64,000 bases of DNA from NCBI RefSeq assembly GCF_000737535.1, contig NZ_CP006269.1:682001-746000 (forward strand). The letters are read 5' to 3'. This document shows, piece after piece, positions 48,603 through 52,609 of this stretch (position 1 is the first letter of the stretch; each line of letters starts with the position of its first letter). A model generated the notes under the pieces. That model saw only the letters and a list, made by a program, of their open reading frames with translations, was not told where the DNA came from and ran no database searches. The position numbers and the translations under genes were made by a program. Source of the stretch: Synechococcus sp. KORDI-100 (lineage in GTDB: Bacteria > Cyanobacteriota > Cyanobacteriia > PCC-6307 > Cyanobiaceae).

Positions 48603-49286
48603 TCAGCCTTGAAGATTTTGAAGGCTCACGCGTGTTGTCTGCCGTGTGATCGGGTTCCAATGATCGAGCTGATCTGACGGTCGCGTCAGCAAGATCGTGG
48701 TCATCGTTTCGAAATTCTTGCAGTAGGAAAAATCCGCACCCTTGATTGAATCGGCGGTTTCAAAATCCGCGTTTTCAAGGTCGGCGCCGCGAAAATCGGC
48801 CAGATCCAGCTGTGAAGTGCCGAAGCGTGCTCGTTTGCAGCAGGCTCCTTTAAAGCTGGCGTTTCGAAGGTCAGCACCAACAAATGACACGTCATTCAGA
48901 ACGGAACCGCTCAGATCAGCACCACTGAGGTAGGCCCCCAAAAAACTGGCACCTCTGAGGTCGAGTCCTCGGAGGTCTGCGCCATTGAAAAACTGACCAT
49001 TCAGCCTGGCTCCGGGACCAACGGCTCCGGTAGATACATGGTTGAATTCACGTGGCCAGCGCGTGGCCCAGTCAAATCTGGCGAGTCGAAGATCAGCACC
49101 CTCCAAGTTGGCATTGCTGAGATCAGCCCCCCTCAGATCAACACGACAGAGCTTTGCCTGGCTCAAATTGGCTTCTTTCAGGTCTGCATTTCTCCAGGAG
49201 GCGCCCCTTGCATCGATGCCTTCGCTCCCATCTCGATCAAGAAAAAGCGGTTGTTGTTGCTCAGGAGCTACCCAATTCTCTAGCAA
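48603..49286 (-). CDS. Pentapeptide-repeat protein
   Basis: 227 residues. Two blocks of A(D/N)LxX repeats (ADLSNANLEGADLRLA; ADLRGLDLRGASFLGAYLSGADLSG; ADFRGADLENADF) should form right-handed beta-helices, joined by a ~30-residue insert. Start is a TTG at 49286. It lies 127 bases upstream of cpeC on the same strand. Similar proteins occur in rod loci of related strains; role unknown, possibly scaffold or assembly. Confidence 0.8.
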   Translation of the reverse strand: MLENWVAPEQQQPLFLDRDGSEGIDARGASWRNADLKEANLSQAKLCRVDLRGADLSNANLEGADLRLARFDWATRWPREFNHVSTGAVGPGARLNGQFFNGADLRGLDLRGASFLGAYLSGADLSGSVLNDVSFVGADLRNASFKGACCKRARFGTSQLDLADFRGADLENADFETADSIKGADFSYCKNFETMTTILLTRPSDQLDHWNPITRQTTRVSLQNLQG

Positions 49287-49480
49287 GTCTGATTATTCGT
49301 AAAAAAAGTACTATACAGGGTTGTAACCAGGCGATTTGCCTGGCGTTCTCTGTCACTGCGCCATTTCAATCAATTGTTAACAATGTGAAGTGAGTATTGA
49401 GTAATTTGTAGATTTCTTTTCGTCGCAAAATTGTTTGTCGCTATGTTTTATGCTCGGCGTTGTTCATTGTGACGTCCCGC

Positions 49481-49828
49481 ATGAGTAAGAGCGAGTTAAG
49501 AAGGTTCATTCGTGACGCTAACCGTTCGGATGAGATGAAAGCAAAGCTCTCGACTGCTGAGCCTGAGCAAATTCTGAAAATTGCAGAACATTATGGGTTT
49601 GCATTCTCCGATGAAATAAAGGGTCGATTTATTAATCGATGGTACGGCGTTTATTTTTGTCCTGATCGCGAAGAGGTCGATCAGTTGTGCCCGCGCTTAA
49701 AGCCGAATGGATTTCCTACATTGGCGCACTATTCGCAATCGACTTGCAATGTTGAAATGCAGCAGGAAGAAAGGGACTTTCGCTCAGGACAAAAGTATTT
49801 TTCTGAAGATCTGAAGGGGTCTAAATAA
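49481..49828 (+). CDS. Nif11-domain protein with Cys-containing tail
   Basis: 115 residues. Residues 1-50 form a Nif11-like domain (ELRRFIRDANRSDEMKAKL, then AEHYGFAFSDEI). The tail has three cysteines (YFCPDREE, LCPRLKP, STCNVEMQ) and many aromatic residues but no Gly-Gly cleavage site. It stands alone on the plus strand, divergent from the pentapeptide gene across an AT-rich 194-base gap. Function unknown. Confidence 0.7.
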   Translation: MSKSELRRFIRDANRSDEMKAKLSTAEPEQILKIAEHYGFAFSDEIKGRFINRWYGVYFCPDREEVDQLCPRLKPNGFPTLAHYSQSTCNVEMQQEERDFRSGQKYFSEDLKGSK

Positions 49829-50099: not shown

Positions 50100-50708
50100 T
50101 TACCGCCACCAGTGTGGTGGGATTTCATCAGACCAGTCTTCCTCGCGCTGAAAGGTGAACTCCCCAGCGACTGACCCCCAGACCCGTTGATGTGTCGTCA
50201 GGTCATAGCCCCGATCCAAGGTGGTCATCCCCTCCGGACTGAGTTGAAAACGACTCTTCAGATAGGTGTCGACACCATTGCGATGCACGATGCAGCGACA
50301 GCCTGGTTCAGTGGTCCCCGCAAAGGTTGAATGGCCGCTTGGGGTGACGTCGTAGGCGCAGCCCTCAAGGACGCCGAACGCTGTTTCTGCGATCGTATCG
50401 CGGATCATCCGATCATCAGAGGCGCCCTGAAAACGCTGAAGTTCATGCAAGCGGAAGTTGATCACGCGGATGGACGTTTCACCCTGCAGTGTTGGACGCA
50501 GAATTCGAACCCGATAGGGCTGGCTGGGATCGACGGCATATCCCTGCTCAAGCAGCAGCGTTGGCTGATCAAACTGGGGCAACGCCCTGTACTTGAGAAT
50601 GATGTGGGCGAAGAAGGGAGGATTATCAAAGGCCTGCTGCTGATTGCTGTGCCGTCCAGCGAGCAAACCGCAGAACCGTTGAAGACGCTCCTGGCCGGCC
50701 TGGGCCAT
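50100..50708 (-). CDS. cpcT: Phycocyanin beta lyase CpcT
   Basis: 202 residues, T-type lyase. RLQRFCGLLAGRHSNQQQAF, FAHIILKYRALPQFDQPTL, EQGYAVDPSQPYRVR and GCAYDVTPSG are family marks. It probably attaches the bilin to Cys153 of RpcB, whereas the second T-type gene (43701) acts on phycoerythrin. Downstream of cpcG. Confidence 0.86.
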   Translation of the reverse strand: MAQAGQERLQRFCGLLAGRHSNQQQAFDNPPFFAHIILKYRALPQFDQPTLLLEQGYAVDPSQPYRVRILRPTLQGETSIRVINFRLHELQRFQGASDDRMIRDTIAETAFGVLEGCAYDVTPSGHSTFAGTTEPGCRCIVHRNGVDTYLKSRFQLSPEGMTTLDRGYDLTTHQRVWGSVAGEFTFQREEDWSDEIPPHWWR

Positions 50709-50771: not shown

Positions 50772-51539
50772 TCAGGTGTGCAGCATCTCACTTGCAATCG
50801 TGAGCAGCACGCGTCCCAGTTCAAAACCACCTATGGCTGCAAGGGTCAGCCAGGCTTTGAGAGCCCAGGCCGGAGGCTGGCCATTGATCCAGGCAGCCGA
50901 GGTCTGCGGCGGGGATGCAACAAGGAGCTCCATTTTGTTCGGGCTGGGAGCCCGATCCTTCAGAGAATTCCGCCAGTCAGCTCCGTAGCGCGGAAATTGC
51001 TGATAGATCGGAGTTTCACCCAGGGCTCGACCGGGTAGAACGCGCGACCGCTGCTGCGGAACCAGGTCATACCCGAAGCAATGCATGTACTCCGTGCTGT
51101 CCAGCAAGGTGTCGACGAAGGCCGTGAAGCCCTTCTCTCCAATCACGATCGACCATGCTCGGCGTTCGGCATCGCCATGGACAGGGCGGCCGAGAACCCG
51201 CCCGACAACCTGATCCACCATGCGGTAGTTCGAGCTGCACTGGTAGTAGCCCTGCTTGAATCGCATGGAGAGCAGCAGTCCGCGGATGAAATCCCGGACG
51301 GTGATGTTGCCGCTGCGGAGTTGTGATTCCAGGAACGGCTCACGATCACTGCGCATGGCATGGAAGAACACCTGGAGGTAGGCCTGTTCAATCAGCGCAT
51401 CCATGGCGATGCGGTTGGTGTCGTCCCCAGCGGCTGCGGAGGGATAGAGCTGGCTACGAACGGTGCTCTCGTCGCCGGCAAGATTGCTGACACGGCCGTT
51501 CTGGGAGCTGAGCGGGTATTGAAGGAGCGGGATGGCCAT
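50772..51539 (-). CDS. cpcG2: Rod-core linker CpcG with hydrophobic C-terminus
   Basis: 255 residues: linker domain (LIEQAYLQVFFHAMRSDREPFLESQLRSG-type start, DFIRGLLLSMRF, RMVDQVVGRVLGRP, STEYMHCFGYDLVPQQR). The C-terminus ends in a hydrophobic helix (WALKAWLTLAAIGGFELGRV) rather than the polar tail of core-binding CpcG1. That resembles CpcL-type linkers which tie rods to the membrane and photosystem I. Named after the second rod-core linker known in marine Synechococcus. Upstream of cpcT. Confidence 0.82.
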   Translation of the reverse strand: MAIPLLQYPLSSQNGRVSNLAGDESTVRSQLYPSAAAGDDTNRIAMDALIEQAYLQVFFHAMRSDREPFLESQLRSGNITVRDFIRGLLLSMRFKQGYYQCSSNYRMVDQVVGRVLGRPVHGDAERRAWSIVIGEKGFTAFVDTLLDSTEYMHCFGYDLVPQQRSRVLPGRALGETPIYQQFPRYGADWRNSLKDRAPSPNKMELLVASPPQTSAAWINGQPPAWALKAWLTLAAIGGFELGRVLLTIASEMLHT

Positions 51540-51611: not shown

Positions 51612-52187
51612 TCAGCTCTTAACTGCAGATTTGTTGAGCTGGGCGCCGAGGTGCTGGAAGCAGTCACGAATCAACTGCTGCTCGCCTGTCTGTGAAACCC
51701 CCTCCAGGGCAAGCTCTTTCAGCTGCTCTAGGGCGATTTTCATCCCCTCTGTCGGCACGTTCATCCGCCTGTAAAGCTCCCGCAGTGCGTCCATGCCTCC
51801 CGGGTTTGTGAACGTGCTGTGATTGCAGGCCACCGCGTACGTGATCACGCGGAGAAAGTTCCAGCAATCCCGCCAGCAGGCCTCAGCCCTCTCCTGAGGG
51901 AACAGGGCCCCGCCCGGCTGAACCAGTTGCGGCTGTGATTCCAGCAGGTGGGCCCTTGCCTGGTTCACCAATTGATCCGCCCTCTCCCCCAGATGGCTGG
52001 GGATGCTGGGGTTGATTCCGGATGCATGGCAAATGCTCTCCAGCTCCCCATGGGTCAGCAGGCGTTGAGCCAGGTCGGCTTTGTCGATCAAAGCGCGTGT
52101 GGTCTGCGACAGCGCACGGTTGGTGCTGAGTCCCTGAACCCGGGCGTTTTGGGCCAGGGTTTTGATGTCGGTGTATTGGTGGATCAA
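51612..52187 (-). CDS. Phycobiliprotein-like protein with conserved bilin cysteine
   Basis: 191 residues from a TTG that overlaps the upstream stop (TTGA). Residues 88-160 align by eye with the beta subunit: QPGGALFPQERAEACWRDCW against [20 protein letters not shown], then FLRVITYAV, DALRELYRRMNVP and ALEQLKELALEG. Cys104, Arg106 and Asp107 occupy the positions of bilin-binding Cys82 and its Arg/Asp partners. The N-terminal ~85 residues differ from any antenna subunit. Could be a chromoprotein, a bilin carrier or a rod-assembly factor. The frame left of 52187 is not coding. Confidence 0.75.
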   Translation of the reverse strand: MIHQYTDIKTLAQNARVQGLSTNRALSQTTRALIDKADLAQRLLTHGELESICHASGINPSIPSHLGERADQLVNQARAHLLESQPQLVQPGGALFPQERAEACWRDCWNFLRVITYAVACNHSTFTNPGGMDALRELYRRMNVPTEGMKIALEQLKELALEGVSQTGEQQLIRDCFQHLGAQLNKSAVKS

Positions 52188-52609
52188 GAGCTGATCCCGG
52201 CAACCGGTGTAGCAATCAACCAGCCGTGGCGCTCCAGATAAAAGGCCCACACCAGATCCTTGCCGAGCCCCGGGCATCGGTCGACGGCAGCCTCCGTGAG
52301 TTCTGGTGAAATACCCAGTTGCGATAACAGCCGAGCGACGGCATCGGGGCTGGAGGCTGTTGCCGTGCGGATGGCTGAGCCAACGACCCAGGTCAGACGC
52401 GTGTCCTTGAGATCGCCGCTGCTCTTCTCGCACGCAAGCAGAAGATTGGCCGGCGTGGTGTGTTGATCAAAGGTCTCCCGCCAGAGCTCGATGTTTTCAT
52501 CGAGCAGATTGATCCGAAAACAACCTTCTCCTACGGGTAGATCCAGCTCACCTCTGCTGCCGGCCTGCTCCTGCAGTGCAGCAATTCTCGGATCAGCCAG
52601 TGGGCTCAT
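52184..52609 (-). CDS. Conserved unknown protein at the edge of the rod locus
   Basis: 141 residues, no membrane segment. Shows GCFRINLLDENIELWRETFD, LTWVVGSAIRTATA and WAFYLERHGWLIATPVAG. The stop overlaps the TTG start of the phycobiliprotein-like gene, so the pair is coupled, followed by cpcG and cpcT. It fits the conserved unknown genes that border rod loci. ATG 52609 is used. Confidence 0.72.
   Translation of the reverse strand: MSPLADPRIAALQEQAGSRGELDLPVGEGCFRINLLDENIELWRETFDQHTTPANLLLACEKSSGDLKDTRLTWVVGSAIRTATASSPDAVARLLSQLGISPELTEAAVDRCPGLGKDLVWAFYLERHGWLIATPVAGISS

Follow-up and report, generated by a model that had tools for sequence, protein, structure and literature searches.

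The closest described relatives of the gene considered here are aplA of Fremyella diplosiphon (compared by its description only) and aplA of marine Synechococcus, which share with it a single phycobiliprotein domain, extended at the N-terminus and equipped with the bilin residues. In the accessible text of Six et al. 2007 (PMC2246261), the marine Synechococcus gene lying between unk4 and cpcGII is given as an ortholog of Fremyella aplA, and the same name is used in the accessible parts of PMC6363710 and PMC5478717. Bilin biosynthesis-associated globins (BBAGs), whose function is not yet known according to the available portion of PMC10151467, are, as Apl is, bilin-type globins tied to bilin-reductase genes. 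The genome of Synechococcus sp. KORDI-100 (GTDB order PCC-6307, family Cyanobiaceae) has a gene in the same unk4/cpcGII position, within the 64,000-nucleotide stretch that was analysed (the window; NZ_CP006269.1, positions 682,001 to 746,000). This gene (51612..52187, 191 codons, TTG start; features are on the minus strand of the window unless stated) was described in the original prediction as an unassigned phycobiliprotein-like protein, but its product is almost certainly the allophycocyanin-like protein AplA, as indicated by PF00502, curated models, a PDB match, an AlphaFold2 model, phylogenetic trees and the assignment of Six et al. (PMC2246261). Its presence largely follows that of phycoerythrin (PE) across distant cyanobacteria, and the probability that AplA carries a covalent bilin, works outside the antenna and has a sensory or regulatory part in the PE system is put at roughly one half.

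The phycobilisome protein family PF00502 spans residues 33-184 of AplA (E = 1.6e-32), so that the phycobiliprotein likeness noticed beforehand is real, although the ~70 residues first assigned to it were too few. The best sequence match in the PDB is ApcA2 (4.5e-16), followed by a phycocyanin beta chain (3.6e-15), and the curated subunit models rank ApcA first (65.1 bits), then ApcB, then phycocyanin beta. No curated subunit model exceeds its cut-off, the top-ranking ApcA model lying far below its own (270), as would not be expected of an ordinary antenna subunit, and no match was found in PHROGs. An AlphaFold2 model built from ten aligned sequences (mean predicted local distance difference test score, pLDDT, 87.9, first ten residues only 66; predicted TM score 0.86) recovers a predicted globin fold, matching solved phycobiliproteins with Z 13.5-14.2 and root-mean-square deviation (rmsd) 2.2-4.0 in VIA-align, and with TM 0.50-0.68 and rmsd >8 by Foldseek alone (both among the 50 matches listed). 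The lack of a globin fold, named beforehand as grounds for refuting the original prediction, is thus not what the model shows. Residue 26 of AplA stands opposite Met1 of CpeB, leaving an extension of 25 residues in the alignment (52113..52187), in which an additional helix is modelled at residues 2-14. The Apl extension described by Montgomery et al. in 2004 is reportedly about 28 residues long.

Clear aplA genes are present in 80 of 299 genomes of the order, one of which (G282, a partial match of 112 residues) was counted as aplA-bearing without being among the fetched sequences. The picocyanobacterial set comprises 83 AplA sequences, 30-77% identical to the window protein, from 79 fetched genome loci and four named records with possible overlap; an 84th row (L102 of genome G190) was left out of later counts as a match at the level of ordinary subunits. 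Outside the family, aplA was found in 33 genomes at 126.9 bits or more each, the next matches scoring at most 95.6 bits (at most eight candidates were scored per genome in the phylum-wide searches, and results are those among the matches listed). In a tree of 88 rows, 71 Apl proteins are parted from 17 ordinary subunits by a 100/100 branch, and a single clade (100/100) unites the window AplA with the proteins of the 33 genomes from other cyanobacterial families. When the tree is rooted with 11 BBAG-like globins, a label that rests on their V4R neighbour genes, Apl groups with the light-harvesting phycobiliproteins, next to an alpha-type group that takes in both allophycocyanin and rod subunits (98/87), the exact joint being less sure than the clade owing to the length of the Apl branch (1.7). 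The BBAG-like rows, of which 5/11 lack Cys-x-Arg-Asp, are kept apart from Apl (100/100), and membership of AplA among the BBAGs was rejected. The special kinship with phycocyanin beta that had been read from the sequence was likewise rejected, both by the order of the curated models and by the alpha-side position in the rooted tree: CpcB has the fold and Cys-x-Arg-Asp in common with AplA, but is not its nearest lineage, and residues 151-170 of CpeB, a stretch that carries a second bilin cysteine in beta subunits, stand opposite only two residues of AplA. AplA is an alpha-side phycobiliprotein that has probably left the antenna, and it differs from allophycocyanin alpha (ApcA, ApcD type) in its low model score, its extension, a tryptophan after the bilin cysteine, the frequent replacement of Asn72 and Arg37, and the lack of a partner gene.

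The cysteine that would attach the bilin is kept in every Apl compared (83/83 picocyanobacterial, 33/33 from other families). In the window protein, Cys104, Arg106 and Asp107 are present as predicted, with a tryptophan between the first two (Cys104-Trp-Arg-Asp-Cys108, 51864..51878); among the 71 Apl rows of the tree these chromophore contacts are conserved in 71 (Cys), 70 (Arg) and 71 (Asp), and tryptophan follows the cysteine in 71/71 Apl versus 0/29 ordinary subunits. Such constancy at 30-77% identity makes a functionless relic scarcely credible, even though aplA is absent from eight phycobilisome genomes with PE and some picocyanobacterial branches are long. Other positions of the ordinary subunits have fared differently: the equivalents of Arg91 and Tyr95 are kept in 71/71 Apl and Asp13 in 61/71, those of Asn72, Arg37 and Arg77 are mostly replaced, and Tyr/Phe at position 18 is present in all 33 Apl from other families but absent from 79/83 picocyanobacterial ones. 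Apl is said to have been described in 2004, again by Montgomery et al., as changed at the positions of alpha-beta pairing. The retained Arg91, Tyr95 and Asp13 equivalents, the Tyr/Phe18 of the other families and the many marine genomes with aplA upstream of cpcG2 could point to a minor antenna subunit, placed for instance on CpcG2-type rods and paired with an ordinary subunit. This is very unlikely, given the loss of Tyr/Phe18 from most picocyanobacterial AplA, the lack of an adjacent partner gene (no phycobiliprotein gene adjoins aplA in the window by open reading frame list and Pfam scan, as originally noted) and, in the accessible text of Six et al. (PMC2246261), a Fremyella homolog not linked to the phycobilisome. 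The view of the protein as a bilin-binding-type globin distinct from ordinary antenna subunits is supported.

A second cysteine near the bilin site, on one helix with the bilin cysteine, also sets Apl apart, being found four or ten residues downstream in 112/116 Apl versus 0/29 ordinary subunits. Picocyanobacterial Apl mostly have it at +4 (Cys108 of the window protein, 72/83; at +10 in 9/83), whereas Apl of other families have it at +10 (31/33, one of them, L174, at both positions). In one reading, held to be unlikely, Apl would be a nearly standard part of the PE gene kit across cyanobacteria, and this cysteine would form a reversible or a second bond to the bilin; AplA would then be a phycobiliprotein with two working cysteines that senses light or bilin and adjusts PE synthesis accordingly. 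Cys53 (52029..52031) and Cys108 are both present in 68 of the 83 picocyanobacterial AplA, both absent from nine and present singly in six; a pairing of the two was set aside, as their co-presence is shared among related sequences.

PE was scored as present where a gene exceeded the cut-off of the CpeB model NF058508, and phycobilisome genomes were defined by at least three family matches within the order (147 of 299) and by a match at 1e-12 outside the family (126). By these measures 105 of 113 aplA-bearing genomes have PE, and only 8 of 113 phycobilisome genomes with PE do without aplA. In the order, 77 genomes have both, three only aplA, six only PE and 61 neither; outside the family, the corresponding numbers are 28, five, two and 91 (Fisher p = 2.4e-30 and 1.1e-20, kinship ignored). 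The gene is not a mark of phycoerythrin II, because it is noted in type IIB clusters without mpeBA in the accessible part of PMC6363710 and is found in genomes with a single CpeB-family match (G022, G051 and G110, for example). Gene location points the same way as gene content outside the family: 20 of 28 PE genomes there carry PE or bilin-synthesis genes no more than about 5 kb from aplA, and pebA or pebB is this close in 16 of the 28 (neighbour thresholds were set by the author, and some loci stop at contig ends). In three loci (L143, L152 and L175) pebA, pebB and aplA are consecutive and run in one direction, while elsewhere pebAB run opposite. A statement of this tie beyond picocyanobacteria was not found in the accessible parts of the open-licence literature; the wide association of aplA with PE across cyanobacteria is possibly new, although the gene itself was already known.

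The co-occurrence with PE and the proximity to pebA or pebB in those 16 genomes would also suit a bilin carrier or chaperone, which passes newly made phycoerythrobilin from PebA/PebB to the PE lyases. Two observations make this unlikely and weaken the bilin shuttle of the original prediction: a thioether-type cysteine kept in 116/116 Apl speaks against hand-over, and aplA occurs without pebAB in five PE-less genomes outside the family (G334, G512, G514, G527 and G571, each with one distant bilin-reductase match; loci L159, L163, L167, L169 and L174) and in two of the order (G153 and G167). From these genomes it would seem that in some species the bilin, if there is one, is phycocyanobilin. A third genome of the order with aplA but no CpeB gene over the cut-off, G294, has both pebA and pebB, and its PE may have been lost from the assembly. 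Alternatively, AplA could take up free bilin produced for PE in excess and dissipate its excitation, protecting the cell. A bilin site retained while the Asn72, Arg37 and Arg77 equivalents were mostly replaced fits such a sink or quencher, as do the bilin-synthesis genes near aplA in many PE genomes; the eight PE phycobilisome genomes that manage without the gene, and its presence in some that lack pebAB, leave it improbable to a slightly greater degree than the carrier.

An attachment cysteine that never varies is more easily reconciled with a permanently bound chromophore than with a carrier, and so a sensor, a regulator or a quencher is likelier; sequence alone cannot tell these three apart. 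A covalent chromophore on Fremyella AplA has reportedly been described, also by Montgomery et al. in 2004. In the favoured explanation, a sensory or regulatory protein of the PE system, a CpcS/CpeS-type lyase would attach one bilin to Cys104, and the loaded AplA would stay outside the phycobilisome and act by binding other proteins, sensing or regulating light colour or bilin supply for PE synthesis and rod assembly. This regulatory mechanism, a reading of sequence and gene context, is put forward tentatively, with somewhat less assurance than the general role. Several observations weigh against both. The candidate sensor has no output domain, partner or photochemistry in evidence. Besides the kinship ignored in the p-values, picocyanobacterial aplA is mostly inside the rod region, so that joint inheritance could explain the tie to PE there. 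The eight PE phycobilisome genomes without aplA are joined by those genomes of the order that score just one or two phycobilisome family matches (labelled here Prochlorococcus-like): 39/39 of them carry a CpeB-family gene but lack aplA. Conversely, the five genomes outside the family listed above, and G153 and G167, have aplA without a CpeB gene over the cut-off, the latter two without pebA or pebB. Near aplA, no PE or bilin-synthesis gene over thresholds was found in 8 of the 28 PE genomes outside the family or in the five PE-less ones. Finally, Fremyella AplA was not pinpointed among the compared genomes, and its orthology is taken as stated in the accessible text of Six et al. (PMC2246261).

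The TTG start of aplA overlaps the TGA stop of a 141-residue orphan gene (52184..52609) by 4 bp, confirming the junction originally described; the overlap recurs in 17/17 loci (L014-L030), and other spacings are found in more distant relatives. By position and content this gene is unk4. Of the 79 fetched picocyanobacterial loci, 68 have it ahead of aplA, one copy being weak and truncated and another sharing a frame with aplA. An obligate partnership with AplA was rejected, as unk4 is kept in 6/6 picocyanobacterial PE genomes without aplA, while no unk4 match was found in the 33 aplA genomes outside the family or in three tested genomes (G114, G195 and G201) of genera g21 and g30. It is also absent from 6/6 tested picocyanobacterial genomes without PE. 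The two genes are neighbours, yet separable. Cys60 and Arg81 of Unk4 are present in 87/87 aligned rows (some genomes twice). Its models, with an alpha/beta fold, exceed a mean pLDDT of 80 in only two of five cases, and Unk4 has no Foldseek match in the PDB at E <=0.001, no PDB sequence by profile and no convincing Pfam family. In one locus (L043 of G294) unk4 and aplA occupy a single frame, the junction differing by one base from that of near relatives; this possible assembly error was not used as evidence of a fusion. In another (L196 of G169) a weak unk4 relative lies beside pebB and pebA, opposite in direction, and not beside aplA.

Downstream of aplA are, as first reported, a cpcG and a cpcT gene: cpcG2 (cpcGII; 50772..51539), encoding a rod-core linker (PF00427, 1.3e-36, and a curated model), and a CpcT/CpeT-family lyase gene (50100..50708; PF06206, 5.6e-49). 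Of the six PE genomes lacking aplA, four retain cpcG2 after unk4 (of the others, one locus ends early and one has unk5 in that place), and strain WH7805 has cpcGII but no aplA in the accessible text of Six et al. (PMC2246261); a role in assembly for the rod linker, as first suggested, is therefore not favoured. A pentapeptide-repeat gene (48603..49286), assigned as unk5 by Pfam scan and by its position in the same source (PMC2246261), also has a relative close to the aplA gene of several PE-containing genomes from other families. Between unk5 and the cpcT gene, opposite to both, is a 122-residue Nif11-domain frame (49460-49828, plus strand; PF07862, E = 5.8e-7). Promoter and terminator signals were no more frequent in a scan than in shuffled sequences.

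The tie of aplA to PE, seen by gene content and map position in distant lineages, would direct attention to the amount of PE, the control of its genes and the supply of bilin, in place of the allophycocyanin core that the name of the protein implies.
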